Below the pieces are notes generated by a model. That model saw only the letters and a list, made by a program, of their open reading frames with translations. It had not been told where the DNA came from and did not search any database. A stretch of DNA of 64,000 nt. Source: Pseudanabaena mucicola str. Chao 1806. Its GTDB lineage: Bacteria > Cyanobacteriota > Cyanobacteriia > Pseudanabaenales > Pseudanabaenaceae. Numbering within the stretch: the stretch's first letter is position 1; the number at the start of each line of letters is the position of its first letter. The DNA lies in the NCBI RefSeq assembly GCF_030323025.1, contig NZ_CP097329.1, positions 2,776,001 to 2,840,000 on the forward strand. The letters are read 5' to 3'. The position numbers were made by a program, and so were the translations under genes. This document shows positions 2,884 through 61,714 of this stretch, in pieces.

Positions 2884-2984
2884 TAGCGGTTTTCATTTTC
2901 CCGTAGGCAAAATGAAAACTCAAAACTCTTAATGGGACTGATTTTTTGTTTTCAAATGAGTACACACTCATTTGAAAACCGCTA
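2884..2984. repeat. Element A (101-bp MITE-like repeat), copy 1
   Basis: Terminal inverted repeats begin TAGCGGTTTTCA and the element is flanked by TA on both sides (2882-2883, 2985-2986), the target duplication typical of IS630/Tc1-mariner relatives. Inside are two hairpins, one capped GTA and one capped ACAC. A second 101-bp copy lies at 39464-39564 and differs at only a few positions, including the apex of the second hairpin, which reads as its reverse complement (GTGT). No coding capacity. Confidence 0.85.
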
Positions 2985-2987
2985 TAG

Positions 2988-4253
2988 ATTAACTGAGATC
3001 TTGCACCATTCCCAAAAGCTTTAAGTAGGAATGGGTTTGAGAACAATTTTAAAACCATAACGAGCAGCAATATCAGCATTAATTCGGATGTATCGGAGGA
3101 GTTTTAACCAAAGGACAGAAGGGAATAAAACAGAAAGTGTCAAATCAGAGGCAGCCTTCCAGTCCAAGACAGGAGGTGGCGACCATTGAGTACTCCAGTG
3201 AGCCAAAAGATAAGCAATCAGAGATAGAATTAGCCAACGAAAAACTCCAAGTTTTGTAGACTGCCCAAAACAATGTAAACCAAAGCGATGTTTAATGGTT
3301 TTGAAAAATCCCTCAATCGCCCAACGCTTACGACCCAACATCACCAGATAAGCACCCGAATAAGGATGAGAAGAAATCACAAAGCGTAACTCTCGTTTGC
3401 TATCAGCTCTTTTGAGCCAGAACCAAGAGATGGTAAATGTGGTACTTAGCCCTTCGAGTAAAACTTGTTGCCCCCGTTTGCCATGACGATAAAGTTGTTT
3501 GACCGAACGCCCATCTTGAAGCTTACGATTGCAGCGTATGCCCACAACAACTCGCCAAGCCTTTGCTCGGACTGTATTTAAAAACTTGACTGTGCAAAAC
3601 TCAGTATCAGCAAGAACAATTACTTTCCTGCCTTGGGTTAATCGCTTTGGCACTGTTCCCAACAATTTACAAGCTAAGTCTGATGGACTCGCATATCCCT
3701 TGCCGCGCCACACTCTAAAACTCCATGGTATTCGCCACTCACCGTAGACTAGATAAAGTAAGACTAGATGAAGTCCTCGCTTACCGTTGAGCATCCTTAC
3801 CCATGGGGCTGAGCCGTCAGCCGTCGAGGTATTTAGATGCAAAAACTTGCCGCATTTTGTCAATGTGGTCAAGTCAATCAAGATCTTCAATGGACTCCCT
3901 TTGTATGGTCGATGCTGAGCGATTTGCTCTAAGATGATCTGACGGGTTATCCGAATCACTGACCGCGTAGACCAGTTATAGTGATTTTGAAACCGACTTA
4001 ACGAACTGGCTGATTTTACTTGCGTATGTTGAGGTAAAGGATGTCCCTGCGCTTCGAGAAATAGTCCCAATATCGCATTCAGACTGGCTTTTTGATACAC
4101 ACTAGGCATAAAGCTCAGAAGGCTATAAACTAACCTTTGGGCGTGCTTAACGATGCTTTCCATATCGTTATTTAAATTAGTACTACGCCCTTTTTTTCAC
4201 ATCTCTCGTCTTTTTGCAACCCCTTTTTAGAATGGTGCAAGATCTCAGTTAAT
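2988..4253 (-). mobile_element. Complete insertion sequence, IS4/IS701-like DDE type
   Basis: The element is bounded by perfect 24-bp inverted repeats (2988-3011 and 4230-4253; inner part CTGAGATCTTGCACCATTC) around one intact transposase gene. The outermost bases include TTAA on both sides. Since TTAA is its own reverse complement, these bases may be a 4-bp target duplication of the YTAR kind known for the IS701 family, not part of the element. It lies 3 bp from element A and separates acsA-pdhA from the pyruvate formate-lyase locus. Confidence 0.85.
3021..4163 (-). CDS. DDE transposase (IS4/IS701 group)
   Basis: 380 aa cut-and-paste transposase. The acidic triad is readable: D97 in ILIDLTT, D186 in VLADTEF and E284 in RKRWAIEGFFKTIKHRFG, where E284 and K288 form the usual E-x-x-x-K signature. 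The reading frame is complete with no internal stop and fills the element between its inverted repeats, so the copy is potentially active. The E-region resembles IS4-type transposases. The element size and possible TTAA target suggest IS701, so the exact family is open. Confidence 0.85.
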   Translation of the reverse strand: MESIVKHAQRLVYSLLSFMPSVYQKASLNAILGLFLEAQGHPLPQHTQVKSASSLSRFQNHYNWSTRSVIRITRQIILEQIAQHRPYKGSPLKILIDLTTLTKCGKFLHLNTSTADGSAPWVRMLNGKRGLHLVLLYLVYGEWRIPWSFRVWRGKGYASPSDLACKLLGTVPKRLTQGRKVIVLADTEFCTVKFLNTVRAKAWRVVVGIRCNRKLQDGRSVKQLYRHGKRGQQVLLEGLSTTFTISWFWLKRADSKRELRFVISSHPYSGAYLVMLGRKRWAIEGFFKTIKHRFGLHCFGQSTKLGVFRWLILSLIAYLLAHWSTQWSPPPVLDWKAASDLTLSVLFPSVLWLKLLRYIRINADIAARYGFKIVLKPIPT

Positions 4254-4343
4254 TAAAGTGAAGGTTTTGATGTTTTCATTTTGAGTGCGGCACAATAAAA
4301 GTATCAAAACATCAATTATTCTCAATTTCATTGGAGGTTCACT

Positions 4344-4709
4344 ATGTCTGAATCTACAACCAAGCATTCCTATGCTGACCAAATGAAACACATTCGCAGC
4401 TACACTGGTAAACTATCCACCGCGATTCCTGAAGTAATGAAGGATTTCTACGCGCTCAGTAAAGCTTCGTCAGCGTCGGGTGTCATCGATAGTAAAACCA
4501 AAGAATTAATTGCTCTAGCGATCGCTGTTGCAATTCACTGCGACGATTGCATTGCCTTCCATACCAATTCTGCTCTTCATGCAGGAGCAACCAAAGAAGA
4601 AATTACAGAAGTACTTGGTGTCGCCATCTTTATGGGCGGTGGTCCTGCTTTGATGTATGCCACCCATGTGATGGCAGCGATCGATGAATTACAGCAAGCT
4701 AATTCTTGA
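4344..4709 (+). CDS. AhpD-like / carboxymuconolactone decarboxylase family protein
   Basis: 121 aa, all-helical CMD/AhpD family. The redox motif CDDC followed by IAFH is present in the stretch CDDCIAFHTNSALHAGA, as in alkylhydroperoxidase D-like proteins that reduce peroxides or recycle peroxiredoxins through a CxxC pair. A strong GGAGG stands 9 bases before the ATG. The gene is convergent with pflA and starts only about 90 bases from the right end of the insertion sequence, so its promoter is short or partly supplied by the IS. A role in protecting the oxygen-sensitive glycyl radical enzyme next door is attractive but only inference. Confidence 0.8.
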   Translation: MSESTTKHSYADQMKHIRSYTGKLSTAIPEVMKDFYALSKASSASGVIDSKTKELIALAIAVAIHCDDCIAFHTNSALHAGATKEEITEVLGVAIFMGGGPALMYATHVMAAIDELQQANS

Positions 4710-4750
4710 TTCTAATTCTTAATTTTTCTAGCGGCAGAGCGATCGCATGA

Positions 4751-5491
4751 TTAAAGCACAGTTGCCCCAATGGTATTAATTCCGCGATCGCGAAATATAT
4801 TAACTGTTTGCTGTACGAGTTCGGGTGGTGCTGGTGGTGTGTCTTTGAGGGAATAGGGCAAACCTAGTTGCTCCCATTTATATTCCCCCATTTTGTGAAA
4901 TGGTAAAACTTCTAATCGCTCCACATTTTTGAGGGTGGCGATAAAATCTGCGAGTTGATTTATATTGTCCGTGTTATCGGTGAGATGTGGCACTAATACA
5001 AATCGAATCCATACAGGTTTACCAATGTCACTCAGATATCTCGCCATTGTTAGAGTTGGCTCAATAGAAACGCTGGTAACTTTGTAATAGAGTTCAGGAA
5101 TGTAGGATTTGATATCCAGCAAAACTAGGTCAGTTTCTTCGAGAACGGGTTTCGCAACTTTGATCGCACAGTAGCCCGATGTATCAATGGCGGTATGCAA
5201 GCCCAACTGATGACAACGCGACAAGATCTCCCTCGTAAATTCAGGCTGCATCAATGGTTCCCCACCGCTTATGGTTACGCCACCTTTACGAATGAACGAT
5301 TTACATTTTTTGATCTCATTTATCAGATAATCAACCGTAACTTCTTTGCCATCATGGGCATTTCGACAGTCTGGGTTATGACAGTAAAGACAGCGCAAAG
5401 GGCAGCCCTGCGTGAAGACAATAAATCTGATCCCTGGTCCATCGAGTGTACCGAAAGTTTCAATAGAATGAATACGTCCAACTCCAGACAT
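4751..5491 (-). CDS. pflA: Pyruvate formate-lyase activating enzyme (radical SAM)
   Basis: 246 aa radical SAM enzyme that places the glycyl radical on pyruvate formate-lyase. The 4Fe-4S motif C30-x3-C34-x2-C37 (CPLRCLYCHNPD) has the same spacing and positions as in the E. coli enzyme, and the N-terminal substrate-binding segment SIETFGTLDGPGIR is present. It lies downstream of pflB on the same strand, 250 bases away, the gap being filled by a nested pair of mobile repeats. The start is the ATG at 5491 with GAGG a few bases upstream. The C-terminus ends with the usual RGINTIGATVL-type segment. Confidence 0.93.
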   Translation of the reverse strand: MSGVGRIHSIETFGTLDGPGIRFIVFTQGCPLRCLYCHNPDCRNAHDGKEVTVDYLINEIKKCKSFIRKGGVTISGGEPLMQPEFTREILSRCHQLGLHTAIDTSGYCAIKVAKPVLEETDLVLLDIKSYIPELYYKVTSVSIEPTLTMARYLSDIGKPVWIRFVLVPHLTDNTDNINQLADFIATLKNVERLEVLPFHKMGEYKWEQLGLPYSLKDTPPAPPELVQQTVNIFRDRGINTIGATVL

Positions 5492-5523
5492 TAAATTTCC
5501 TCAATAACCTCAATAATTTTTAG

Positions 5524-5700
5524 GTAGTGTTGCAAAGTTAGGACTTACGCAAACCGAACGAATTTATTAGGCTTGAGGTAGATGTGGTGCGGGCTTCGCC
5601 CGCACCACATCTACCCAATGCGTAAGTCCTAAAAGTAATTTTTTTATTAACTGTGTTGCGAGCGCTTTGCGCCCGCAACACAGTTACGTTGCATGACTAC
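5524..5700. repeat. Element F interrupted by element B (nested repeats)
   Basis: The outer ends match the 79-bp element F at 21035-21113 read in reverse (GTAGTGTTGCAAAGT ... GCATGACTAC). Inside it sits a 93-bp element B at 5539-5631. The duplicated target AAAGT is seen at 5534-5538 and 5632-5636. The arithmetic closes exactly: 79 + 93 + 5 = 177. The F hairpin (arms 5649-5665 and 5669-5685) has a TTT apex. The unit lies between pflB and pflA. Confidence 0.9.
5539..5631 (+). mobile_element. Element B (93-bp MITE), copy 1
   Basis: Perfect 13-bp terminal repeats TAGGACTTACGCA / TGCGTAAGTCCTA, a GC-rich inner hairpin with TTC apex, and a 5-bp target duplication (AAAGT). Other copies: 39455-39650 (inverted, split by element A), 61622-61714, and a truncated one at 22652-22699. 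No coding capacity, so a transposase acting in trans is assumed. Confidence 0.9.
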
Positions 5701-5742
5701 CAATTTTTATAAAGAGTGCCGCTTTGCAGTACTCTTTATCGA

Positions 5743-7971
5743 TTAGACACGTTCGTGGAACGTGCGTTTAATCACGTCCAGTTGCTGCTCACGGGTGAGC
5801 TTGATGAAGTTCACGGCATAGCCTGAAACGCGAATTGTGAGTTGTGGATGTTTTTCAGGGTGTTCCATCGCATCTAGTAAAGTGTTGCGATCTAGAGCAT
5901 TAACATTAATGTGATATCCACCATCATGGAAGTAACCATCTAACAATCCAACAAGGCTATTGAGGCGATCGCTTTCCTGTCTACCCAACGCCGCAGGCAC
6001 AATCGAGAAGGTATTGGAGATACCATCCTGACAATCACTGTAGGGCAGTTTGGCAACCGATGAGAGTGAGGCGATCGCGCCGCAACAGTCGCGTCCATGC
6101 ATCGGATTTGCTCCAGGGGCAAAGGGTTCGCCAGCCCTACGTCCATCGGGAGTATTACCCGTTTTCTTGCCATAGACAACATTGGAAGTAATCGTGAGTA
6201 CCGATTGCGTAGGTACAGCTTGGCGATAGGCAGGATGTTTGCGGATCTCATTCATGAATCTTGCAACAAGGTCAACTGCGATACTATCGACGCGATCATC
6301 GTTATTGCCATACTTAGGATATTCGCCTTCGGTCTCGTAATCTACCGCCAAGCCTTGATCGTTGCGAATCACCTTCACCTTGGCATATTTAATCGCCGAG
6401 AGGGAGTCCGTAACTACGGATAGACCCGCTATACCACAAGCCATGGTGCGATAGACATCACGATCGTGCAATGCCATTTCGATGCGCTCGTAGCAATACT
6501 TGTCATGCATATAGTGAATGACATTCAGCGTATTAATGTATGCCTTCGCCAACCATGCCATCATTTGCTGCAAGCGATCATTAACTTCTTGAAAATCCAG
6601 ATATTCACTGGTAATTGGTGCAAAATTGGGAGCGATTTGATCCCCAGACTTCTCATCCTTACCACCATTGATTGCATAGAGCAATGTCTTAGCAAGGTTA
6701 ACCCTCGCACCGAAGAACTGCATCTGCTTACCAATTCGCATGACCGACACACAACAGGCGATCGCATAGTCATCGCCATAGATCGGGCGCATCAAGTCAT
6801 CATTTTCATATTGAATAGAACTAGTATCGCTGGATACCTTTGCACAGAACAGTTTGAAGTTCTCAGGCAAGTGTTCTGACCATAAAACCGTCAAGTTCGG
6901 CTCTGGGGCTGCTCCTAGATTTACCAATGTATGCAGGAAGCGGAAACTGCTTTTGGTCACTAAAGTCCGACCATCGGCACTCATGCCACCGATCGCCTCA
7001 GTTACCCATGTGGGATCGCCTGAGAATAGATCATTGTAGTCAGGGGTACGCAAGAAGCGCACCATGCGTAACTTCATCACAAAATGATCTACTAACTCTT
7101 GCAATTCCGTTTCCGAAGTCTGACCATTTTGCAGATCACGCTCGAAATAGATATCTAAAAATGTCGAAACCCGACCGAGGGACATGGCAGCACCATTTTG
7201 CTCTTTGACTGCTCCTAGGTAGCCAAAATAGAGCCATTGCAAAGCTTCTTTAGCGGTCATGGCAGGACGACCAATATCAAAGCCATATTTTGCCGCCATT
7301 TCCTTGAGTTCAAACAAGGCTCGAATTTGTTCCGATAGCTCTTCCCTTAGACGAATAGTTTCTTCGTCCATGACATCAACCTCAAGAGAGTCTTTTTGGG
7401 TCTTCTTGTCATCAATCAGGCGATCAACACCATAGAGGGCTACCCGACGATAATCACCAATAATTCGTCCTCTTCCATAGGCATCGGGTAAGCCTGTAAT
7501 GATTCCCGATTTCCTTGCCTTTCGCATTTCCGTGGTATAAGCATCAAATACACCATCATTATGGGTTTTGCGATATTTAGAAAAAACTTCTTCTGTGGCG
7601 GGATCAAGTTGATAGCCATAGGCTTCTAGTCCCGATTTCACCACACGAATACCACCATTGGGCATGATGGCGCGTTTGAGTGGCTTATCTGTCTGTAATC
7701 CGACAATTAGTTCTAGTTCACGATTAATATATCCAGCATCATGGGCAGTGATTCCTGCAGGAACTTTAGTATCAACGTCCAATACCCCCTTTTGACGTTC
7801 TAGTTTCATCAGTTCCAGCACTTCGCTCCAAAGCTGCTGGGTTCTAGTGGTTGGTGCAACCAGAAACTCAGCAGTTCCTTCGTAGGGTGTGTAATTCTTT
7901 TGGATAAAATCTCTGACGTTAATCTCTTTTGTCCAACTACCCACTGTAAAGCCCTGCCATTCTACATACAT
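5743..7971 (-). CDS. pflB: Pyruvate formate-lyase (formate C-acetyltransferase)
   Basis: Glycyl radical enzyme converting pyruvate and CoA to acetyl-CoA and formate under anoxia. The reading frame can extend to a TTG at 7986, but the ATG at 7971 has GGAGG 7 bases upstream, so I take 742 aa. The active-site cysteine pair sits in [20 protein letters not shown] (about 406-407 in this numbering), and the glycyl radical loop RVSGYA lies about 25 residues from the C-terminus. Length and motifs match the E. coli enzyme closely. With pflA downstream this is a complete fermentation module, useful for dark or mat-interior metabolism. A clear promoter and a 5' inverted repeat precede it. Confidence 0.96.
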
Positions 7972-7999
7972 TGCTTTAACCTCCAATAGATTTTTGTGG

Positions 8000-8032
8000 C
8001 TGAAAGAAATAAAAAGTATCTTTATCTTTCAG
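8000..8032 (-). promoter_or_regulatory. Inverted repeat in the pflB leader
   Basis: Near-perfect dyad with arms CTGAAAG...CTTTCAG around an AT-rich centre, 29 bases upstream of the pflB start. It would fall at the very 5' end of a transcript from the promoter at 8037-8064, so it can be an operator at the start point or a 5' mRNA stem-loop. Function is not known from sequence. Confidence 0.5.
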
Positions 8033-8036
8033 TTCT

Positions 8037-8064
8037 ATTATAGGTTTATCCATTTATCTATCAA
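8037..8064 (-). promoter_or_regulatory. Sigma-70 type promoter for pflB
   Basis: On the minus strand TTGATA (8059-8064), a 16-base spacer and a perfect TATAAT (8037-8042) precede pflB by about 65 bases. No FNR-type TTGAT-N4-ATCAA site was seen beside it. Confidence 0.6.
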
Positions 8065-8146
8065 AGTAATAGCAGTAATCTTATTACAAAAGTTAACTAG
8101 TAAAATCTAATCCAATCAGGGGATGTAGACTCTGTTAAGGCTATGA

Positions 8147-12161: not shown

Positions 12162-12534
12162 ATGGTTTCCAGTGGCTAAATTGTGTTACTTGGAACCTTC
12201 CTAGTCCCTATAATTAGTTGCGTTTTTATAGTTGTTTTAAACTGGTAGATGGGCTTAGAATTCTCTCAGCCGTCGGCGTCGGCTAGATGGATGAAGTAGA
12301 AGTTGCAGTTTTTATATAAGCATGGGTCGCCTGATATGCAGGCGACCCATGCTCTAGGTTTAGGTTTGCGTAAGGACGGGCGGCGCGAAGCGCCGCCCGT
12401 CCTTACCTATTTGGCACTAACATTCTAGCTTTTGTTGGTCTTCGGGTGTCATTTGCTTCAGGACGGAATTTTGCTTCTATTATCTCATCCCTATACTCCG
12501 TAGAATATTTTAACTATTTATGAAATTGACAAGA
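12162..12534. other. Convergent intergenic region with repeat E and two hairpins
   Basis: Holds repeat E copy 1 (about 12227-12315), a hairpin with 14-bp arms GCATGGGTCGCCTG (12320-12333 / 12339-12352), and a GC-rich hairpin with 17-bp perfect arms and GAA apex (12370-12386 / 12390-12406). The latter two probably end transcripts of the converging histidine kinase and kinase-GUN4 genes, though neither is followed by a good T-run. No gene is visible. Confidence 0.7.
12227..12315. repeat. Repeat E, copy 1
   Basis: Shares ATAGTTGTTTTAAA, TAGATGGGCTT, CTCAGCC and a terminal GAAGTTTT-like segment in the same order with 40813-40905. The second copy keeps a cleaner palindrome built on CTTCGACTT / AAGTCGAAG; this one looks degenerate. 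Confidence 0.6.
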
Positions 12535-17546: not shown

Positions 17547-18227
17547 TCAAGCCATAAAATAAGAAGCCATCAAAATAATGCCAATAATTACTAAACCCCA
17601 AGCGCAGATCCATTCCCAAGTGCGATCATTACTTTTTTTATTATGACTTGGAGAATATTTAGAGGAAAAGCTTTGGGTGGTGATGGACTTCTCGGCGATC
17701 ACAAAGTCATCAGGGTTAACTTTCTTGGTGGAATAAACATGAAGTTCCCGATTTTGCCAAGCCTCAATTGCTAAATTCCAAAGGTGTTTCTCATCCCAAT
17801 AGTCCCATGTGATCCGAGATTCACTATTATTTTCGCTTGTATAAATTCCCTCTGTTTGAGATTCAAAATAATAGAGTCTTCCTAAAGCTCTTAACTTGAA
17901 ATATGGCTCACGATGTTCTTGCATAGCATCCCATAGCGCAAAACGGACATCATCGCCTACATGTTCCCCCGATACACGATTAACGCCAATTTCCTCTGAT
18001 AAATACCAATTGATCCGAGTTTCAAGATTCTCAGGATCGCCTTCCCGCAATAGATAATAACTAGTTTTGCCTGAATTCAGTAACCATTCCATGGTCTCGT
18101 AACCGTTAGGATCATCATAGGTGCTAAAGTCTTCAACTTCCCATTGTGTTCCCCCATAGGTAACGAGATCGCCTGCTCTCAGGCGTGTAAGGAAGCTAAC
18201 ATAATCAGTACTAAAAGATGATTTCAT
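17547..18227 (-). CDS. DUF4178 protein with C-terminal membrane helix
   Basis: 226 aa. The DUF4178 signature is repeated twice: RAGDLVTYGGTQWEVEDF...WLLNSGKTSYYLLRE...INWYLSEE near the start, and LRALGRLYYFESQTEG...ITWDYWDE...WQNRELHVYSTKKV after it. The C-terminus is one membrane helix (about 203-226, WICAWGLVIIGIILMASYF). DUF4178 proteins recur beside spermidine-synthase-like genes in many bacteria (general knowledge), and that is seen here. It is the first gene of the cluster; a 21-bp-arm palindrome and a tandem repeat lie upstream. Biochemical function is not known. Confidence 0.8.
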   Translation of the reverse strand: MKSSFSTDYVSFLTRLRAGDLVTYGGTQWEVEDFSTYDDPNGYETMEWLLNSGKTSYYLLREGDPENLETRINWYLSEEIGVNRVSGEHVGDDVRFALWDAMQEHREPYFKLRALGRLYYFESQTEGIYTSENNSESRITWDYWDEKHLWNLAIEAWQNRELHVYSTKKVNPDDFVIAEKSITTQSFSSKYSPSHNKKSNDRTWEWICAWGLVIIGIILMASYFMA

Positions 18228-18271
18228 AATATTCCTGCTATTAGTTCAGGCTTTATAAGCCAATTATAATT

Positions 18272-18316
18272 AAAAAATGAGAGTTGCATCGCAAAGCGAT
18301 GCAACTCTCATTTTTT
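18272..18316. repeat. Palindrome with 21-bp perfect arms
   Basis: Arms AAAAAATGAGAGTTGCATCGC and its complement (18272-18292 / 18296-18316) around an AAA apex. With the T6 end it would work as a terminator in either direction. It sits between the DUF4178 gene and the tandem array. Confidence 0.8.
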
Positions 18317-18343
18317 AACTCTGTGGAGCGGCTTCGCCGAACT

Positions 18344-18944
18344 ACAAAAAACAAGAAACCTAACTAATTTAGAACTTAAATTTTGTACTGTGGCTTTACT
18401 ACATTCTAAAAAACAAGAAACCTAACTAATTTAGAACTTAAATTTTGTACTGTGGCTTTACCACATTCTAAAAAACAAGAAACCTAACTAATTTAGAACT
18501 TAAATTTTGTACTGTGGCTTTACTACATTCTAAAAAACAAGAAACCTAACTAATTTAGAACTTAAATTTTGTACTGTGGCTTTACCACATTCTAAAAAAC
18601 AAGAAACCTAACTAATTTAGAACTTAAATTTTGTACTGTGGCTTTACCACATTCTAAAAAACAAGAAACCTAACTAATTTAGAACTTAAATTTTGTACTG
18701 TGGCTTTACCACATTCTAAAAAACAAGAAACCTAACTAATTTAGAACTTAAATTTTGTACTGTGGCTTTACCACATTCTAAAAAACAAGAAACCTAACTA
18801 ATTTAGAACTTAAATTTTGTACTGTGGCTTTACCACATTCTAAAAAACAAGAAACCTAACTAATTTAGAACTTAAATTTTGTACTGTGGCTTTACCACAT
18901 TCTAAAAAACAAGAAACCTAACTAATTTAGAACTTAAATTTTGT
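18344..18944. repeat. 62-bp tandem repeat array (about 9.5 units)
   Basis: Units begin at 18361, 18423, 18485, 18547, 18609, 18671, 18733, 18795 and 18857, with a partial tenth at 18919. The period is exactly 62 bp and units are almost identical: units 1 and 3 read TACTACA where the rest read TACCACA. Each unit carries a small stem TGTGG-CTTTA-CCACA. The array is bounded by larger GC-rich hairpins (GCGGCTTCGCCG near 18330 and 18954). No spacer diversity exists, so it is not CRISPR. It lies immediately downstream of psaJ. Confidence 0.95.
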
Positions 18945-18974
18945 GGTGCGGCTTCGCCGCACCACAAAATTTAA
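18932..18974. terminator. Large hairpin downstream of psaJ
   Basis: Perfect stem of about 19-20 bp (CTTAAATTTTGTGGTGCGGC with its complement) closed by a TTCG-type apex, 17-58 bases after the psaJ stop on the minus strand. It probably stabilises or ends the psaFJ transcript, and its AT-rich arms match the flanks of the 62-bp units. Confidence 0.7.
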
Positions 18975-18989
18975 GAAGCTTTAACTAAT

Positions 18990-19106
18990 TTAGAAAGGGA
19001 AGGTGAGAGTGTCTGGGAAAAAGCGGTTAGCTTCGATCAAGATACCAGCCGTGATCGTGAGCCATACAGCAGCTACAACAGGAGCAGAAGATAAAAAACC
19101 GTTCAA
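18990..19106 (-). CDS. psaJ: Photosystem I subunit IX, PsaJ
   Basis: 38 aa thylakoid membrane peptide, too short for ordinary gene calls. Translation gives [21 protein letters not shown] then [17 protein letters not shown], matching PsaJ with its single helix and conserved E-x-NRF-x-PD. The start must be TTG at 19106: no ATG is available in frame, and AAGGAG lies 7 bases upstream. PsaJ stabilises PsaF in PSI. It follows psaF by about 110 bases, the standard psaF-psaJ operon. Confidence 0.93.
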
Positions 19107-19784: not shown

Positions 19785-19920
19785 AGACTGACCTTAACTT
19801 ACCTTTGTTTAAAATTAGGCAAAAATAACGAGATTTTCGTTTGAGAACTTGGTTTCAGATCGTATATCAGCGATCGCGCCTTGGTAAAGCAATCTTCACA
19901 TCCTGTAAAGTAAATTATCA

Positions 19921-19967
19921 ATTAAGATGATCTAGATGTCGCGTCGCGACATCTAGATCATCTTAAT
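19921..19967. promoter_or_regulatory. Perfect 23-bp-arm palindrome 12 bases before tsaD
   Basis: ATTAAGATGATCTAGATGTC and onward mirrors itself around a single central T (19921-19943 / 19945-19967), followed by TTTTTGTTT. It sits inside the tsaD leader directly before the start codon and 137 bases upstream of psaF. It looks like a terminator or strong leader hairpin; as an operator it could face both genes. Confidence 0.75.
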
Positions 19968-19979
19968 TTTTGTTTAGAA

Positions 19980-21034: not shown

Positions 21035-21113
21035 GTAGTCATGCAATGTAATTGTGTTGCGGGCGCTTTGCGCCCGCAACACAATTACTAAAAAAATTAC
21101 TTTGCAGCACTAC
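21035..21113. repeat. Element F, copy 2 (79 bp)
   Basis: GTAGTCATGCAATG ... TTTGCAGCACTAC with a 19-bp perfect inner stem (21048-21066 / 21070-21088). Read in the orientation of the copy at 5524, its apex is AAA where that copy has TTT. It lies between convergent tsaD and a PlsC-like gene. Confidence 0.85.
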
Positions 21114-22500: not shown

Positions 22501-22740
22501 AATCTCCATTGTTTTGCTTAGCAATACGCATTAAAACACGCCAAGCAAGAATTCACAATTTGGGACTTAATTGAGTCAGCGCTCTGAATGGGGCAATTAA
22601 GACTTAACAACTACATATAGTGCACGTGCCATATGCACAGTAAAGTCACTAGCGGTGCGGGTGAAGCCCGCACCATATCTACCCAATGCGTAAGTCCTAA
22701 AATATTTAACTAAATAGGGATTATGCGAGTCTTGTAGAGT
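22501..22740. other. Divergent intergenic region with truncated element B
   Basis: Right half of element B at 22652-22699 (ending in GCGTAAGTCCTA), with its hairpin capped GAA where copies 1 and 3 have TTC in the same orientation. The left terminal repeat is missing. No gene is visible. Confidence 0.7.
22652..22699 (+). repeat. Truncated element B, copy 4
   Basis: Only the right half survives (hairpin with GGTGCGGG arm, then CTACCCAATGCGTAAGTCC). Apex GAA in element orientation. Confidence 0.75.
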
Positions 22741-23694: not shown

Positions 23695-23700
23695 TTAAAA

Positions 23701-23723
23701 AAAGCAGCGCGAAGCGCTGCTTT
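23701..23723. terminator. Bidirectional terminator with GAA apex
   Basis: Arms AAAGCAGCGC / GCGCTGCTTT (23701-23710 / 23714-23723), GAA loop, followed by TTTT on the plus strand and preceded by an A-run. It serves the convergent SPOR-like and glycosyltransferase genes. Confidence 0.85.
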
Positions 23724-23725
23724 TT

Positions 23726-24901
23726 TTAGTAGATACGTCCGCGCCAACTTTTCGGTTTAGTAAATGCAGAAATCCAGATCCGTATTACGGCAAAGGGATC
23801 AGCAAGGGGAGATAGCCAAAACCAAAAACCCACTTCGGTATAACTAGTCCGAATACCAAATACCAGTAAGCATCGGATCAATACTAAAAAGGCATTGAGC
23901 CAAAATAGAGTATTAATTATTAATGATGGTGCTGGTTGCCAAATCGATAGGGCTATTAATAAGGGAATAGGTAGCCCTTGAACCGCCGTTAGCAAAAGAC
24001 AATCCGCAAAGGTTTGACTAGGCGTTGAGGCATCCTTAAGATCGAGCGATCGCCCCCATTCCTTCCATGTTTCCTGCATTGAGTTATACATCCGCACCTG
24101 CATCAAGGCTGCCCCATCAAGAAATCCCACCTTTGCGCCCTTTTGAGCGGCGGCTCTAGCAAGGGTGACATCATCACAAAATGAAGATTTGGCAAGCTCA
24201 TAGCCATTTAGTTCGACTAGCTTGGTGCGCTTTGATAAAAAGCATTGACCATTTGCCATGACCCGATCTTCAGTAAATTGATCGCGATCGCCTGTTGCCC
24301 CAAATCGGTAAATCAAGGTAATTAACAATGCAGGTTGTAGCCATTGTTCGCCTGCGGTCTTAAGAATAAATTTAGGCGATAGGGATACAATATCAAAATT
24401 TTCAGCAGTGGCTTGCTGCACAAAACTTGTGACTAGTCCTTTTTGTGGGAAGGTATCGGCATCAATACCGAGAATCCATTCACTAGTCGGATCAGTATGC
24501 AAAAATCCTGTATGTAAAGCCCAAGGGCGACCAACCCAACCTTCTGGCAAGGGGTCATCGGTAATCAGCTTTAAAGGAATCGGAAAATCTGGTTGTAATT
24601 TCTGTACATATTCGGGTGTGCCATCCTGCGATCGGCTATCAACAACGATGATTTCCTTCGCAGCCTGATCGCGCAATCCTTCTAAACATGTCGGTAAACG
24701 CTCAACTTCGTTAAGCGTCGGGATCACAATCGAAACACTAGGTCTTTGTTTGGCTAAAGCTTCGTCATTTGCATCAAGGGGCAATAGTGGCGGCGTGCGA
24801 TCACGGGCAGTGCTAAGCCTTTTTAGGAGTACAAGGGTGGCGGGGACTTGTAATAACAAAAGGAATATTAAGAAGCCTGTCAAGAAAAGCGGATTATTCA
24901 A
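23726..24901 (-). CDS. cruG: Family 2 membrane glycosyltransferase, CruG-type
   Basis: 391 aa. One N-terminal helix, a GT2 domain with SIVIPTLNEVERLP, the metal-binding GIDADTF, the acceptor-region FCDDVTLARAA and MYNSMQETWKEWGRS, then two to three C-terminal helices. This layout fits the CruC/CruG carotenoid glycosyltransferases; CruG adds the 2'-O-sugar of myxol-type carotenoids (myxoxanthophyll) in cyanobacteria. The GT2 call is firm. CruG is recalled from family shape and the RGRIY-type end. No carotenoid gene is adjacent to support it. Confidence 0.65.
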   Translation of the reverse strand: MNNPLFLTGFLIFLLLLQVPATLVLLKRLSTARDRTPPLLPLDANDEALAKQRPSVSIVIPTLNEVERLPTCLEGLRDQAAKEIIVVDSRSQDGTPEYVQKLQPDFPIPLKLITDDPLPEGWVGRPWALHTGFLHTDPTSEWILGIDADTFPQKGLVTSFVQQATAENFDIVSLSPKFILKTAGEQWLQPALLITLIYRFGATGDRDQFTEDRVMANGQCFLSKRTKLVELNGYELAKSSFCDDVTLARAAAQKGAKVGFLDGAALMQVRMYNSMQETWKEWGRSLDLKDASTPSQTFADCLLLTAVQGLPIPLLIALSIWQPAPSLIINTLFWLNAFLVLIRCLLVFGIRTSYTEVGFWFWLSPLADPFAVIRIWISAFTKPKSWRGRIY

Positions 24902-26230: not shown

Positions 26231-26264
26231 AAAGGAAGAAGCACCCATTGGTGCTTCTTCCTTT
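26231..26264 (-). terminator. Terminator of the ndhCKJ operon
   Basis: Arms AAAGGAAGAAGCACC / GGTGCTTCTTCCTTT (26231-26245 / 26250-26264) around CATT. On the minus strand it is followed by a run of T. It overlaps the ndhJ stop codon. Confidence 0.9.
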
Positions 26265-29987: not shown

Positions 29988-30390
29988 TTAAGTTTAACTT
30001 CGTTTTTTGCTATGGGAGTTTACAATTCTGATGCGATCCTTTAATGTGCCATATTTTCGGACGCAATAACACATTAGAATTTTTAGAATTTAATGCAATT
30101 TCAGGATAATTTGAAACGGGCTTTGAGAGAGAGTTTGTGTAGAAAGCCTTCTCTTAAAGTCCAGAGGTAAAAGCCTTGCTACGCAAAGCTTTTACCTCTG
30201 GACTTTTAAAATTTGCCAGCTTAACCCGAACTGACGTTACATTTTGGAGTGGCTCAAATCGATGATTCACTGAGAGTTGTTGTAATTTTTGTTTGGTTGC
30301 TATTTGTTTACAGATTTAAGAAATAATAATGAAGAGGCTATCTCACCGATAGCCTCTTCATAAAAAGTTACAGCATATAGTTTAGATAAT
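29988..30390. other. Intergenic region with element C copy and tRNA terminator
   Basis: Contains element C copy 1 (about 30095-30239) and a hairpin with arms TGAAGAGGCTATC / GATAGCCTCTTCA (30330-30342 / 30348-30360). On the minus strand that hairpin is followed by TTATTATTT and probably terminates tRNA-Leu. No ORF. Confidence 0.65.
30095..30239 (-). repeat. Element C (MITE-like), copy 1
   Basis: Reverse orientation of the 151-bp element at 50825-50975. It shares AACGTCAGTTCGGGTTAA at one end and GATAATTTGAAAC at the other. The hairpin between them has 19-bp perfect arms (30156-30174 / 30188-30206) whose sequence is unlike that of the other copy. Its left terminal repeat is degenerate. Confidence 0.8.
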
Positions 30391-32704: not shown

Positions 32705-32810
32705 AAGTAGCTCAACTTAATTAAAACCCAAAACGAGAGTTTGTTCCGCCCGCGTAACGGGCGGAACAAACTTCTCGATTTTTAGTTTACTTATGTCTAG
32801 CTACTTAGCG
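32705..32810. repeat. Family G palindromic repeat
   Basis: Outer AAGTAGCT / AGCTACTTA ends, the phrase TTAAAACCCAAAAC, and a hairpin GTTTGTTCCGCCC (32739-32751) / (32759-32771) with a GCGTAAC-like apex, then TTTAGTTTACTTATG. The 54805-54865 region repeats the same phrases with different arms. It directly abuts the IS5 remnant. Confidence 0.65.
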
Positions 32811-39454: not shown

Positions 39455-39650
39455 TAGGACTTATAGCGGTTTTCATTTTGCCGTAGGCAAAATGAAAACT
39501 CAAAACTCTTAATGGGACTGATTTTTTGTTTTCAAATGAGTGTGTACTCATTTGAAAACCGCTATACACTTGAGGTAGATGTGGTGCAGGCTTCGCCTGC
39601 ACCACATCTACCTCAAGCCTAGTAAATTCGTTCGGTTTGCGTAAGTCCTA
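39455..39650 (-). mobile_element. Element B, copy 2, split by element A
   Basis: Reverse orientation. Left end TAGGACTTA and right end GCGTAAGTCCTA flank a 101-bp element A. A 5-bp target duplication TTAGT is at 39450-39454 and 39651-39655. Removing element A and one TA restores a contiguous B sequence, so A arrived after B. The B hairpin apex is GAA in element orientation, opposite to copies 1 and 3. Confidence 0.9.
39464..39564. mobile_element. Element A (101 bp), copy 2
   Basis: Same length and terminal repeats as 2884-2984, flanked by TA (39462-39463, 39565-39566). It is inserted inside element B. Its second hairpin apex reads GTGT where the first copy has ACAC. Confidence 0.9.
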
Positions 39651-50805: not shown

Positions 50806-50824
50806 CAGTGTCGAATCAGAGTAA

Positions 50825-51944: not shown

Positions 51945-51970
51945 AGAATTTTTGCTGCTTGAATATTCAA

Positions 51971-56590: not shown

Positions 56591-56711
56591 TTGATTTCAA
56601 ATATTTTGAGCAATCCTGATAGGTTAAGTTACTCAAACTGTTAAAATTTTTGTAAGGTTTAATAAAATTCTTTACAGTTTTAGTTATAAAACGCAGACAG
56701 GATCGCAAAAC

Positions 56712-57755
56712 GTGAGAATTGCAGTAGATGCGATGGGTGGGGACTTTGCCCCACGCGAAGTGGTTGAAGGAGCAATATTAGCTCAGACACAATTGGGTGT
56801 AGATATAGCGCTAGTTGGCGATCGCGATATTCTCGCGAACTACTTCAAGCAACATAACTATAAGGAAAGCGATCGCCTAGAGATCGTGCCATCGGAAGGC
56901 ATCATCGAGATGGATGATGAACCCCTCGAAGGGCTACGCCGCAAGCCTAACTCCTCGATCTCCGTTGCCATGAATTTAGTCAAGCGCAAGCAAGCAGATG
57001 CGGTAGTTTCGGCTGGACATTCTGGCGCAGCAATGGCAGCCGCCCTGCTCCGATTGGGGCGTTTACCTGGGGTAGACCGACCTGCGATCGGCGCATTATT
57101 TCCCACACAGGTTCCCCACAAGCCTGTATTGCTACTCGATGTTGGCGCAAACGTGGATTGTCGTCCCAAATTTTTAGAACAATTTGCGATCATGGGGTCG
57201 CTTTACAGTAAATATGCGATCGGTATTCAAGAGCCTAAAGTCGGGTTGCTTAATATTGGCGAAGAAGCCTGTAAAGGCAATGAGCTAGCGATTCGTGTAC
57301 ACCATTCCTTGCAGGATAATCGGCAAATCTTATTTGCTGGTAATGCTGAAGGTCGCGACATTCTAAAGGGGCAATTTGACGTAATTGTATGTGATGGCTT
57401 CACAGGTAATGTTGTCCTCAAATTTGCTGAGGGTGTCGGTAATGCTGTCATGCAAATTCTCAAAGAAGAATTGCCTAAAGGTTGGCGCGGTAAGCTTGGG
57501 GCTCTGCTCCTGAAACCTAATCTCAAGAAAGTTAAAGAACGCATTGATGCCGATGAGTATGGTGGGGCTTTATTGCTAGGTGTGGCAGGTATTTGTGTCA
57601 TTGGTCACGGTAGTTCTAACGCCATCAGCATTCGCAATGCTATCCGTGTCGCCAAGGATGCAGTGGAAAATGAAGTCCTAGAGCGCATCCGTGGTCAAAT
57701 TAAGCCCAAAGTAGCTGTCCCTGCGGATGATACCCCCGACGACCCGCCAACTTAA
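56712..57755 (+). CDS. plsX: Phosphate acyltransferase PlsX
   Basis: 347 aa. Converts acyl-ACP to acyl-phosphate for PlsY in phospholipid synthesis. Starts with GTG (VRIAVDAMGGDFAPREVVEGA) and has SAGHSGAAMAAALLRLGRLPGVDRPAIG and CDGFTGNVVLKFAEG. The fabH gene follows by 70 bases on the same strand, the widespread plsX-fabH operon. Confidence 0.96.
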   Translation: MRIAVDAMGGDFAPREVVEGAILAQTQLGVDIALVGDRDILANYFKQHNYKESDRLEIVPSEGIIEMDDEPLEGLRRKPNSSISVAMNLVKRKQADAVVSAGHSGAAMAAALLRLGRLPGVDRPAIGALFPTQVPHKPVLLLDVGANVDCRPKFLEQFAIMGSLYSKYAIGIQEPKVGLLNIGEEACKGNELAIRVHHSLQDNRQILFAGNAEGRDILKGQFDVIVCDGFTGNVVLKFAEGVGNAVMQILKEELPKGWRGKLGALLLKPNLKKVKERIDADEYGGALLLGVAGICVIGHGSSNAISIRNAIRVAKDAVENEVLERIRGQIKPKVAVPADDTPDDPPT

Positions 57756-57825
57756 TACTTACCTATATTGTTGTTGCTGCGCGTCAACAATATAGCTTTT
57801 TACTTATCCAGCCCAAATATAGCCC

Positions 57826-58797
57826 ATGACTAATACTGAATCTTCTCTGCTCGGAGTACGTTTTATTGGTAGCGGTTCTGCCGTTCCTGATCGCGTATTG
57901 ACCAATCAAGACCTTGCCCAGATGGTAGATACCAATGACGAGTGGATCTCCTCGCGGACAGGTATCAGAGAGCGCCACATTGCCGATGGTGAGAATGATT
58001 CAGTAGCTAACTTAGCGGCTAAAGCTGCTCAACAGGCGATCGCCGCCGCAGGTTTACAGCCCGAAAATATTGACCTAATTATTTTATCTACTTCTACCTC
58101 TGACGATTTATTTGGTACGGCAGGGAGGGTGCAAAAAATCCTAGGAGCAGAGCGAGCTGTTGCTTTCGATCTGGTGGCAGCCTGTTCAGGATTTGTTTTT
58201 GGTTTAGTGACTGCCTCCCAATATATTCGTACAGGTGTTTACAAAAACGTTTTGCTAATTGGGGCAGATGTTCTCTCGCGTTGGGTCGATTGGCAAGATC
58301 GGCGCACTTGTATTTTGTTTGGTGATGGTGCGGGAGCCGTGGTTTTACAATCTAGCAGTCAAAATAGCTTGCTAGGCTTTGAGATGCGAAGCGATGGTAA
58401 GGGTAATGACTTGCTCAATATCAATTATCTTGGACGTAGTACCTTCCATCCGATTACGATGAATGGACAGGAAGTTTATCGGTTTGCGGTGCGGCGTGTG
58501 CCAGAGGTGATCGAAAAGTCCTTGCACCATGCTGGTCTAGCAGTTAACGATCTGGATTGGTTAATCATGCATCAAGCCAATCAACGCATTATTGACGCAG
58601 TGGTCAATCGCTTTGGAATTGATCCTGCTAAAGCAGTGAGCAATATGGGCAAATATGGCAATACTTCGGCTGCTTCAATTCCGATCGCCTTAAATGAATG
58701 GGTCAAAGCAGACAAAATTCAAAAAGATAATTTAATTGCGATCGCAGGTTTTGGAGCAGGGCTAAGTTGGGGTTCGGCGGTGTTTCGCTGGGGTTAG
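57826..58797 (+). CDS. fabH: 3-oxoacyl-ACP synthase III (FabH)
   Basis: 323 aa, initiates fatty acid synthesis from acetyl-CoA and malonyl-ACP. Catalytic C120 in VAACSGFVFGL, His in IMHQANQRI and Asn in YGNTSAASIP are all present. Standard length. Confidence 0.96.
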   Translation: MTNTESSLLGVRFIGSGSAVPDRVLTNQDLAQMVDTNDEWISSRTGIRERHIADGENDSVANLAAKAAQQAIAAAGLQPENIDLIILSTSTSDDLFGTAGRVQKILGAERAVAFDLVAACSGFVFGLVTASQYIRTGVYKNVLLIGADVLSRWVDWQDRRTCILFGDGAGAVVLQSSSQNSLLGFEMRSDGKGNDLLNINYLGRSTFHPITMNGQEVYRFAVRRVPEVIEKSLHHAGLAVNDLDWLIMHQANQRIIDAVVNRFGIDPAKAVSNMGKYGNTSAASIPIALNEWVKADKIQKDNLIAIAGFGAGLSWGSAVFRWG

Positions 58798-58930
58798 ATA
58801 GACAGCATTAGAATTTCTTGTATTTCTTTTGTGACTTTAGGCATCTAGGCAAGCCTGTCAAAAAGATGTAATAATTTGTAACAGAATTGACAAGCGATCG
58901 CTTAACCATACGTTCAAAACGATCAAACCC

Positions 58931-59332
58931 ATGGAACCCGAATCAATCAATACGGAAACTTCTGACGCAGAAACTAAACCAGTACTCAATATCACCATAG
59001 TCGAAGCCCCAGAAGTCAAAGAGGAACCCCATCGTCATGAATGTGGCGTATGCGGCTATATATACGAACCATCAATCGGTGATGCTAAACGGAATATTCC
59101 TGCGGGTACGCCCTTTGAAGAAATCGCCGAAGACTGGCGCTGCCCTGTCTGTAACACTAAGAAAAAATCATTCTCAGATATTGGTGTTGCTTCCAAGCCT
59201 TCAGGATTTACTGAGAACCTTGGCTATGGTTTTGGCGTAAATGTCCTGACACCTAACCAAAAAAACCTACTTATATTTGGATCATTGGCACTTGCTGTCA
59301 TTTTCTTTATCAGTCTTTACGCACTCGATTAA
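58931..59332 (+). CDS. rubA: Membrane-anchored rubredoxin RubA
   Basis: 133 aa. The rubredoxin iron site is C38-x2-C41 ... C71-x2-C74 (ECGVCGYIYEP, WRCPVCNTKK), followed by one C-terminal helix (about 111-131). RubA is needed for photosystem I and II assembly. The ycf48 gene follows by 74 bases, as in other cyanobacteria, but the psbEFLJ genes that usually come next are absent here. Confidence 0.95.
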   Translation: MEPESINTETSDAETKPVLNITIVEAPEVKEEPHRHECGVCGYIYEPSIGDAKRNIPAGTPFEEIAEDWRCPVCNTKKKSFSDIGVASKPSGFTENLGYGFGVNVLTPNQKNLLIFGSLALAVIFFISLYALD

Positions 59333-59406
59333 TTATTAATTAACTAATTCGATATTCACTCAGCATTATTCAGCATTATAAATTCACGCACTTTTATTAA
59401 TTTTTT

Positions 59407-60408
59407 ATGAAACAAAGCATAAAACGCTTTCTTAGCTCTCTATTTGTTTGTGTATTGATTTGCGTATCTTTATTAGGCGTAGCAATGCCTAGTGCCTCGG
59501 CAAATCATGGTAACTGGCACAAAGTGGAGCTACCTGTAGCCATCACCCCGCTTGATCTCTGGTTTGACAAATATGAACCCAATCACGGCTGGCTAGTAGG
59601 TACTGACGCAACTTTGCTGGAGTCCACCGACGGAGGCAAGACTTGGGAAGAGCGTAAACTCGATCTAGGTGATGGCATCTACCGTTTCTCGTCAATTAGT
59701 TTCTCTGGTAACGAAGGTTGGATTACAGGTCAGCCTGCACTCCTGCTACATACCACTGATAATGGTCAATCTTGGTCACGGATTGGGCTTAGTTCCAAAC
59801 TCCCTGGCGATCCCTTTAAGATCGTGGCTCAAGGTCGTAACTCTGCGGAAATGGTTACAGATTTAGGTGCAATTTACAGCACTCAAGATGGGGGGCAAAA
59901 CTGGAAAGCATTAGTTACCCAAGCCGTTGGTAATGCTCGTAATATCTATCGCAGTGATGATGGTCGTTATGTAGCGATTTCGGCAAATGGAAACTTCTAT
60001 TCCACATGGCAACCAGGAGATATGACTTGGATTCAGCATAATCGTAATAGCTCTCGCCGTGTGCAGAATATGGGCTATACGCCAGACAATCGCCTCTGGA
60101 TGCTCAATCGTGGCGGTCAAGTGCAATTTAGTGAAGTTGGCGAGTTTGATAAATGGGAAAAGAAACAAACTCCTAAAGATGGAGGCGGTTTTGGTCTGCT
60201 CGATCTTGCTTATCAAGATGGCAATAATGTCTGGATTTCTGGAGGTAGTTCGAGATTACTCCATAGCGAAGATGGTGGCAAAACTTGGAAGCGTGATGGG
60301 TCTGCCGCAAATGCGGGTGCAAACCTTTACAAACTTTACTTTTTCTCAAAAGATCGTGGTTTCGTAGTTGGACAAAATGGCACATTACTAGCCTATTCTC
60401 CAGACTAA
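59407..60408 (+). CDS. ycf48: Photosystem II assembly factor Ycf48 (HCF136)
   Basis: 333 aa lumenal seven-bladed beta-propeller that helps early D1 and reaction-centre assembly. A signal peptide (LFVCVLICVSLLGVAMPSASA) is followed by recurrent blades containing SxDGGKTWE, DNGQSWSR, QDGGQNWK and EDGGKTWKRD. Same operon as rubA. Ended by two GAA-capped hairpins instead of running into psbE. Confidence 0.95.
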   Translation: MKQSIKRFLSSLFVCVLICVSLLGVAMPSASANHGNWHKVELPVAITPLDLWFDKYEPNHGWLVGTDATLLESTDGGKTWEERKLDLGDGIYRFSSISFSGNEGWITGQPALLLHTTDNGQSWSRIGLSSKLPGDPFKIVAQGRNSAEMVTDLGAIYSTQDGGQNWKALVTQAVGNARNIYRSDDGRYVAISANGNFYSTWQPGDMTWIQHNRNSSRRVQNMGYTPDNRLWMLNRGGQVQFSEVGEFDKWEKKQTPKDGGGFGLLDLAYQDGNNVWISGGSSRLLHSEDGGKTWKRDGSAANAGANLYKLYFFSKDRGFVVGQNGTLLAYSPD

Positions 60409-60421
60409 AAAAATCGTGCTA

Positions 60422-60470
60422 AAAAAGGAAAGGAGGGGCGGCGCGAAGCGCCGCCCCTCCTTTCCTTTTT
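60422..60470. terminator. 23-bp perfect-arm hairpin with GAA apex
   Basis: AAAAAGGAAAGGAGGGGCGG and onward (60422-60444) pairs with 60448-60470. The T5 arm end makes it a strong terminator for ycf48. Confidence 0.85.
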
Positions 60471-60482
60471 AGGATTACCCTA

Positions 60483-60511
60483 AAAACATCCCCGCGAAGC
60501 GGGGATGTTTT
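60483..60511. terminator. 13-bp hairpin with GAA apex
   Basis: AAAACATCCCCGC / GCGGGGATGTTTT around GAA. It overlaps the plsC stop region and probably terminates plsC on the minus strand. Confidence 0.8.
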
Positions 60512-61181
60512 ATCTGCCTAATGCGTGGAGTGCATTAATTGCATCCGCGCATTTTTGTGTATAAGCCTCAAGGGTAGCGCGATCGCCTGACTCTGGAGCA
60601 GGAATCAACTCCCCAATCCGCACCGTTACAGGCTGAAATAATTTAGGAAATTTAGCTCCTTTCGGTAAAATCGTTTCTGTCCCCCACACCGATACAGGTA
60701 AAAAAGGTGCATTGGTTTTTGAGGCAATCATGGCGGCTCCTAATTTAGGATTAGTAATTTTGCCGTCAAGGGTACGTGTCCCTTCCAAGAAAATACCCGT
60801 CGCCCAGCCCTTATTAATTGACTCGATCGCCGATCTAATTGCCGCGCGATCGCCTGCCCCACGTTTCACAGGGTATGCCCCAAAAGCCTTAATCGCTTGC
60901 TTTAACACAGGTATTTCAAACAATTCTTCCTTTGCCATAAAAGCTACAGGACGTGCCATACAACTACCAACGATCAAAGGATCAAAATCACTGGCATGGT
61001 TACTAACTACGATGAGATTGCCTGTGAGTGGCACATTTTCAGCGCCGTAAATACGTTCTTGGTAAAACAAGTACAGCAGTGGACGCACCACTAGCCACTT
61101 AAACATCATATATAAAAGATGATTACCGCCTTGAGCCTTTTCATTATCTTTGGTAGTTGTAGGGGTAGTTTCGTTTTCCAT
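60510..61181 (-). CDS. plsC: 1-acyl-glycerol-3-phosphate acyltransferase (PlsC)
   Basis: 223 aa. Makes phosphatidate from lysophosphatidate. Motif I NHASDFDP (H62, D67), motif II YPVKRGAGDRAAIRSA and motif III FLEGTRTLDG are intact, with one membrane-associated N-terminal helix. bolA lies 58 bases upstream on the same strand. Confidence 0.93.
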   Translation of the reverse strand: MENETTPTTTKDNEKAQGGNHLLYMMFKWLVVRPLLYLFYQERIYGAENVPLTGNLIVVSNHASDFDPLIVGSCMARPVAFMAKEELFEIPVLKQAIKAFGAYPVKRGAGDRAAIRSAIESINKGWATGIFLEGTRTLDGKITNPKLGAAMIASKTNAPFLPVSVWGTETILPKGAKFPKLFQPVTVRIGELIPAPESGDRATLEAYTQKCADAINALHALGR

Positions 61182-61239
61182 TTACCAATTGTCCAAAACT
61201 TTGCTTCTTAAACTTAGTACGAATTAGGTACGTCGTCTC

Positions 61240-61524
61240 TTAAAGTTGTTGCCATTGTTCGGGAGTATAGGTTTTTAAGGCTAGGGCATGAATTGTCGTT
61301 TGCATTTGATCGGCGAGCGCAGCATAGACCATGCGATGTTGCTGCATCATGGTTTTACCTGCAAAACTTTCTGAAACAACGATCGCATCATAATGACCAC
61401 TGCCAACTTGGGAATTCATTCTGCCCTGATGATGTTTATGCAAATCACTACGATCTTCAATTTCTACAATCGAAGCGCTGATTTTTTCTGCCAAAATATT
61501 TTTGATAGTAGTGATAGTATCCAT
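61240..61524 (-). CDS. bolA: BolA-family protein
   Basis: 94 aa. Core DLHKHHQGRMNSQVGSGHYDAIVVSESFAGKTMMQQHRMVYAAL with the metal-ligand histidine of the BolA fold. BolA proteins pair with monothiol glutaredoxins in Fe-S handling. Precedes plsC on the same strand. Confidence 0.92.
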   Translation of the reverse strand: MDTITTIKNILAEKISASIVEIEDRSDLHKHHQGRMNSQVGSGHYDAIVVSESFAGKTMMQQHRMVYAALADQMQTTIHALALKTYTPEQWQQL

Positions 61525-61621
61525 TAATTTCTGAGTGCTTTAAGTGATTGTTTTTGCTTTAGTTTAGTTGACTTAATGAAGAATACATAACTAATTTAGT
61601 TTTAGTATTTTTTCTAAAGAT

Positions 61622-61714
61622 TAGGACTTACGCAAACGGAATGAATTTATTACGCTTGAGGTATATGTGATGCGGGCTTCGCCCGCATCACATATACCTC
61701 AAGCGTAAGTCCTA
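61622..61714 (+). mobile_element. Element B (93 bp), copy 3
   Basis: TAGGACTTACGC ... GCGTAAGTCCTA, same length as copy 1. A 5-bp target duplication AAGAT flanks it (61617-61621 / 61715-61719). Hairpin arms read ATATGTGATGCGGGC where copy 1 has AGATGTGGTGCGGGC; both copies are fully complementary inside. Apex TTC. Confidence 0.9.

Follow-up and report, generated by a model that had tools for sequence, protein, structure and literature searches.

Do the tips of small DNA hairpins turn over in place while the sequence around them keeps its orientation? The question is raised by a 64,000-nucleotide stretch of the chromosome of Pseudanabaena mucicola str. Chao 1806 (genome label G000, one contig; NZ_CP097329.1, positions 2,776,001 to 2,840,000; below, the window, numbered from its first nucleotide). 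A first-pass annotation described three families of short hairpin-forming repeats in it, elements A, B, and F, whose apices read as their reverse complement in different copies. Our results showed that perfect hairpins with arms of about 12–14 bp or more and apices of about 1–7 nt occur in both orientations at orthologous Pseudanabaena sites, by exact inversion of the central block, and that about one third of such hairpins differ between two strains at ~0.58% divergence.

Apex inversion at orthologous hairpins

The comparison genome, G006, belongs to the same species and is a metagenome-assembled genome (MAG), that is, a population consensus. We compared 0.81 Mb of G000 with 0.74 Mb of matching G006 contigs; the two differed by ~0.58% mismatches (374 kb aligned, first part of the sample). 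Perfect hairpins with an arm of at least 8 bp, a loop of up to 15 nt, and a non-palindromic apex were listed, and orthologs were located through the 40-bp flanks on each side, with up to four mismatches per flank. Palindromic apices, in which a flip is invisible, were excluded from the flip counts. Only apices with non-complementary ends were accepted, which means that inverting one of 3–5 nt takes at least two substitutions.

The list held 642 hairpins, 87 of them without an ortholog. In 71 of the remaining 555, the apex was the exact reverse complement, with arms and flanks conserved, and 60 of these 71 showed no other change within the hairpin. Five hairpins with ambiguous orthologs were kept in the overall count and in the counts by arm and loop, and were left out of the analyses of uniqueness, apex change, local divergence, stem stability, and clustering. 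The classes "other" (20) and "indel" (12) were scored as unflipped; some of these cases hold a flipped apex plus further changes (e.g., G000 1246497, 1252125, 1573713, 1680714), so the flip counts are low if anything. Random control segments of matching size gave four "flips" in 9456, and 56 of the 9456 had a palindromic centre that could not be scored. The four are presumably single central substitutions, because complementary ends of the centre were allowed in these segments.

The apices that changed did so almost always by inversion. Among equal-length pairs with arms of at least 14 bp and loops of 3–5 nt (n = 137), 44 apices were flipped and two were altered otherwise, and the 1-nt apices changed in 12 of 30 pairs, all 12 to the complement. 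Under a symmetric two-state model, the 31% flipped among all such 3–5 nt hairpins (44/142) corresponds to 0.48 flips per hairpin (0.32–0.77), ~83 times the per-site divergence. In this cyanobacterium, the tips of perfect hairpins invert at a rate well beyond that of ordinary mutation, whether the hairpin is unique or part of a repeat.

The first-pass annotation had proposed a comparison of orthologous loci in a close strain, and at element A this revealed the same apex flips without change in the flanks. Of 30 copies retrieved from G000, 22 could be paired with an orthologous locus in a set of 30 retrieved from G006. The first hairpin of the element (hairpin 1) was flipped in 5/22 (GTA to TAC or the reverse) and hairpin 2 in 1/22 (GTGT to ACAC); the flanks of these ortholog pairs differed at 0.06–1.5% of positions. 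All four combinations of the two apices were present among 26 copies. Apex orientation is not fixed by subfamily, and its inheritance within subfamilies is ruled out by these four combinations together with the flips at orthologous loci. Both observations also bear on whether flipping may be recurrent and reversible. A third close strain was sought among 39 non-G006 loci; five matched G000 sample stretches over at least 600 bp, at 75–84% identity, too distant to use.

Within the window, the apex differences described for the three families were all recovered. The element A copy at 2882–2986 (plus strand, ~105 bp, ends TATAGCGG/CCGCTATA) contains two internal hairpins, the second at 2948–2979 with apex ACAC at 2962–2965; both apices are unflipped in G006. 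In the copy at 39462–39566 (plus strand), hairpin 2 (39528–39559) has GTGT at 39542–39545 between identical 14-bp arms, and is flipped relative to the 2.9-kb copy by comparison within G000. Element B has TTC at 5595–5597 in the copy at 5538–5633 (plus strand, ends TTAGGACTTACGCA/TGCGTAAGTCCTAA, hairpin 5577–5615), where G006 has GAA, and again at 61678–61680 in the copy at 61621–61716 (plus strand). A decayed plus-strand copy near 22.7 kb retains an inner hairpin (22654–22674) with the GAA form, TGAAG at 22662–22666, flipped in G006 (G000 2798654). The copy at 39565–39650 lies on the minus strand, and its plus-strand TTC at 39592–39594 is GAA in the orientation given by the flanks; for this copy and the one at 61.6 kb the comparison is within G000. 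Element F reads TTT at 5666–5668 (copy 5648–5703, plus strand, unflipped in G006). Its copy at 21048–21088 is reversed by its flanks (minus strand), and the plus-strand TTT at 21067–21069, which is AAA in element orientation, is AAA on the plus strand of G006.

Elements A and B resemble miniature inverted-repeat transposable elements (MITEs). They measure ~105 bp and 96 bp, have terminal inverted repeats with TA at both ends, and, with scoring confined to the 40 top candidates, number at least 40 copies each in the whole G000 genome. Both the inverted-repeat ends and the abundance are as in MITEs. In a search of the genome collection with the A hairpin, the best 80 of 88 stretches all belonged to entries for Pseudanabaena or to a single bin labelled "uncultured cyanobacterium". 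To the right of one element A copy (locus L007 in G000, L099 in G006), G006 has an insertion of ~140 bp with inverted-repeat ends (GGCTCTTCTGGGTT...AACCCAGAAGAGCC) that is absent in G000 and is possibly a recent MITE-like insertion.

The link between flipping and repeat families did not hold. Hairpins with unique arms, in which no 12-mer recurs elsewhere in the 0.81-Mb sample, were flipped in 6/16 cases, and the others in 38/126. When 10 unique-looking hairpins of the 71 flipped ones were searched genome-wide, seven matched only their own place (one with an additional weak match of 77%) and three had diverged relatives at 84–94%. These results bear on ectopic gene conversion between repeat copies with opposite apices, in favour of which elements A and B have many near-identical copies, with both apices present. 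The equal flipping of unique-arm hairpins and the seven without a real relative speak against it, and in one copy (L016) an end variant common to both strains persists beside the flip. Ectopic conversion as the main cause is contradicted for unique hairpins and is very improbable overall; it could still add flips in repeats.

Flipping was frequent in the window as a whole. Twelve of its hairpins have an arm of at least 14 bp, a 3–5 nt apex, and a G006 ortholog, and 10 of these were flipped, among them those of element B at 5.6 kb and element F at 21.0 kb. GAA in G000 is TTC in G006 at 12387–12389 (hairpin 12370–12406, arm 17) and at 23711–23713 (23696–23728, arm 15), and TTC is GAA at 18953–18955 (18933–18975, arm 20). 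The hairpin at 18270–18318 (arm 23) has AAA at 18293–18295 and, in G006, TTT plus one arm change. At 19920–19968 (arm 24) the 1-nt apex T (19944) is A in G006. Two flipped hairpins have themselves as their sole match in the genome: 26231–26264 (arm 15), with CATT at 26246–26249 and AATG in G006, and 30329–30361 (arm 14), with TCACC at 30343–30347 and GGTGA in G006. The hairpin at 32738–32772 (arm 15) changes from CGTAA (32753–32757) to TTACG and has two candidate places. In the hairpin at 30156–30206, G006 has the 13-nt centre inverted in one piece, stem mismatch included (CTTGCTACGCAAA to TTTGCGTAGCAAG). The window also contains a tandem array (18190–19047) of 62-bp units, about 13 as inferred from its span, which overlaps the 5′ end of a minus-strand reading frame (17547–18227).

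Arm length, apex length, and apex sequence

Flipping needs a long arm and a short apex. With arms of at least 14 bp, the 1-nt apices were flipped in 12/30 pairs, loops of 6–8 nt in 2/19, and loops of 9–15 nt in 4/39, each of these flips having additional inner pairing past a mismatch. With arms of 8–13 bp, the counts were 2/42 for loops of 1–2 nt, 6/72 for 3–5 nt, and 1/211 for 6–15 nt, and at least one of these short-arm flips, in the B copy at 22.7 kb, belongs to a longer stem with imperfect pairing. At loops of 3–5 nt, the arm effect was clear (44/142 vs. 6/72; Fisher p = 1.4e-4). We also searched for inverted repeats with arms of at least 12 bp and spacers of 16–300 nt. This gave 144, of which 42 had no ortholog, and 1/102 was flipped; its 16-nt spacer was the longest inverted. 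For arms of at least 14 bp the count was 1/48 (p = 8e-6 vs. 44/142).

The triloops of hairpins with arms of at least 12 bp were uniform: cGAAg (52), cGTAg (45), and cAAAg (25) made up 122/138, each repeat copy being counted (e.g., window 5595–5597, 12387–12389, 23711–23713). The cGNAg motif forms an extra-stable DNA minihairpin. Together, the uniformity of the triloops and this stability suggest that hairpin apices are shaped at the DNA level.

A site-specific invertase acting at a shared site could also leave such a uniform set of triloops. The arms of the 71 flipped hairpins were diverse by inspection (no motif search was run), and we found no common recognition repeats around a longer segment, as invertons would have. 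Apices such as CATT, TCACC, CTGAT, AATA, and GAAAT flip too, and no inverted spacer exceeded 16 nt, all of which makes an invertase barely credible.

Flipping is probably neutral, because apex orientation is about 1:1 relative to transcription. Between co-directional genes (crude reading frames), GNA:TNC apices on the transcript strand numbered 29:25, and transcription does not seem to select apex orientation. Of 183 triloop hairpins with GNA, TNC, AAA, or TTT, flipped or not, four lay inside crude reading frames and 13 more at the ends of the stretches.

How the apex may be inverted

According to the first-pass annotation, the two arms change jointly and keep their perfect complementarity, and a process that copies one arm from the other was proposed there. 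Arm changes were scored in 285 non-overlapping hairpins of 344 (50 had no ortholog and nine a length change), with 4898 stem pairs in all. There were 38 one-sided differences and six two-sided compensatory ones, so that joint change of the arms was not confirmed. Nor were arm mismatches clearly fewer than divergence predicts: arm sites diverged by ~0.39%, near the overall 0.58%. Five of the one-sided mismatches lay in G000 and 33 in G006; since the hairpins were picked in G000, mismatches there are under-counted and the 0.39% is low if anything.

The six coupled changes are nevertheless far above the ~0.05 expected from independent substitutions by our own arithmetic. At G000 1252125 (locus L137), one base pair was added in both arms and the apex flipped, which looks like a single arm-copying event. 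The coupled changes and this coupled insertion suggest that arm copying by fold-back occurs, more rarely than inversion. Correction of the quasipalindrome type, in which the arms are made identical and the apex is kept, would at most make a small contribution.

Seven flips had a "loop" of at least 6 nt. In five of them this loop contains inner pairs beyond a stem mismatch, and pairs and mismatch were inverted together; the remaining two have genuine loops of 6 and 7 nt. Stem mismatches carried over in inverted form point to block inversion and not to arm copying. Arm copying or hairpin priming would make the arms perfect without touching the apex, whereas here the apex inverts and the arm changes are mostly one-sided. 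That part of the proposed process falls away, and template switching is retained as the best explanation. With identical arms, a flip implies that the complementary strand served the apex as template or as exchange partner. A switch to that strand or a reciprocal inversion would provide this, and priming by fold-back would not.

We consider that the flips probably arise by intermolecular template switching ("spacer inversion"). A replicating 3′ end that is copying the first arm would jump to the complementary arm, that of the other parental strand or of the sister. The apex would then be copied as its reverse complement, and a switch back within the second arm would complete the inversion. With identical arms only the apex would record the event, and a stem mismatch inside the switch points would be carried inverted. 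Such a replication strand switch is proposed from the sequence products, and a cruciform-based inversion would give the same product.

Recombinational inversion is accordingly the closest competitor. Here an extruded cruciform or a single-strand gap would let the arms anneal or exchange, and the apex would be inverted reciprocally without template-switched synthesis. It would need short loops and long arms, as observed, and would carry mismatches inside the exchange points inverted as well. Plastid inversions of 5–50 bp with 11–24 bp repeats are ascribed to hairpins undergoing recombination (PMC12928735). On the other side, among hairpins whose arms reach 14 bp or more, the flipped fraction did not follow predicted stem stability (15/43, 13/44, 23/50, and 10/43 by quartile, with ties placed in both neighbouring bins). 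Arms of 14 bp are also short for RecA-type exchange. On balance we regard recombinational inversion as unlikely, if still worth weighing.

Several observations weigh against template switching. The limit on loop length suits a cruciform intermediate equally well, and the main comparison is of one genome pair, one of them a MAG. The flipped fraction did not rise steadily with local divergence (6/35, 15/35, 13/35, and 10/37 by quartile; Mann–Whitney p = 0.35), and flips were uneven among G006 contigs, from 0/11 on C146 to 10/13 on C144 (permutation p = 0.0074). These two results are awkward for a simple clock, and with no trend the flips were rejected as a clock of local divergence. The unevenness could come from differing coalescence times along a recombining genome; an excess of adjacent flips along contigs had p = 0.04 against a global shuffle and p = 0.24 within contigs. 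A chromosome-strand bias of GNA apices, suggested post hoc from 100 apices, found no support in 20 further stretches (GNA:TNC 23:17), so nothing ties the flips to fork direction.

Other genomes and known systems

Flips were also found in other pairs of the genus. Between G025 and G022 (8.7% divergent over 46 kb aligned), 14 hairpins with arms of at least 14 bp and loops of up to 5 nt gave five flipped, three the same, and six changed otherwise; one of the five flips rests on weak flanks (15 differences in 60). G022 and G014 (n = 9) gave two flipped, four the same, and three undetermined, and G025 and G014 (n = 6) gave none flipped, one the same, and five undetermined. The numbers are small and indicate that the process is not peculiar to one assembly.

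This bears on an assembly or sequencing artefact, which could be suspected because G006 is a metagenome assembly and because, by reasoning, hairpins longer than the assembler's k-mer leave the loop orientation ambiguous. Arms of 14–15 bp, below the usual k-mers, flip as commonly (17/56 at loops of 3–5 nt) as longer ones. One of the other genomes with flips, G022, is a single contig, and both apex forms occur among copies inside the one-contig G000. We therefore judge an artefact improbable.

In Escherichia coli K-12 and REL606, one partly overlapping 50-kb block of each held 27 hairpins with arms of at least 8 bp, and of the eight with arms of at least 10 bp that were inspected none was flipped, six were the same, and two had no ortholog. 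Only one E. coli hairpin had an arm of 14 bp, so the contrast has little power and is too small for the Pseudanabaena rate to be called special. As for repair genes, G000 had no match to the ExoI C-terminal domain, and only E. coli among 14 control genomes had one, which is not diagnostic. G000 has two SbcD homologues over the family cut-off (C1:1024032-1024811 and 264035-264796), which are not diagnostic either.

A broader view, which we put forward only tentatively, is that fast and reversible hairpin inversion may be general across cyanobacterial chromosomes. It would be near saturation within species, perhaps polymorphic within a culture, and ancestral to the minute inversions of plastids, and it would rest on a replication or repair trait that is suppressed in other bacteria.

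The data give rates, in a free-living bacterium and a large genome sample, for a process on record from yeast and plastids. Genetic work is feasible in some cyanobacteria, which makes the choice between template switching and recombinational inversion testable. In strain comparisons, flipped apices mimic clusters of false substitutions and should be masked.

The first-pass annotation knew of no description in cyanobacterial small repeats. We likewise found no account of genome-scale apex flipping in the hairpins of cyanobacteria or other bacteria among the best-ranked matches in the open-access literature, with most subscription journals outside this scope; two surveys deal with bacterial inverted repeats (PMC10434271, PMC13155455). 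The phenomenon itself is described in plastids and yeast, and to that extent it is not new.

MITEs share with elements A and B a short length, many copies, and terminal inverted repeats; here A and B are only carriers, and flipping is independent of them. Quasipalindrome correction in E. coli also involves template switching at inverted repeats, but the reporters score intramolecular arm correction, which is rare here (six coupled vs. 38 one-sided changes; PMC7202029). In chloroplasts, two reports describe minute or small hairpin inversions between and within species, with stems of 11–24 bp, and at least 18 bp in trnH-psbA (PMC2903610, PMC12928735). The likeness lies in loops that flip between close relatives on stems of comparable length. 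These plastid cases differ in being in an organelle and in having loops of 5–50 bp (25–27 bp or more in most trnH-psbA cases), whereas here loops above ~7 nt seldom flip. The closest likeness is to spacer inversion in Saccharomyces cerevisiae, where the report gives arms over 9 bp, spacers of 2–5 bp, and changes reversible within a species, TTC to GAA among them (PMC8604942). There, as here, the apex is inverted exactly and the arms are unchanged. The yeast set comprises ten events in coding sequences, whereas in Pseudanabaena 71 of 555 orthologous hairpins are flipped and few triloop hairpins lie in reading frames. Apex flipping in Pseudanabaena belongs to a known kind of change, as in yeast and plastids, here found in a bacterium, at genome scale, and fast.

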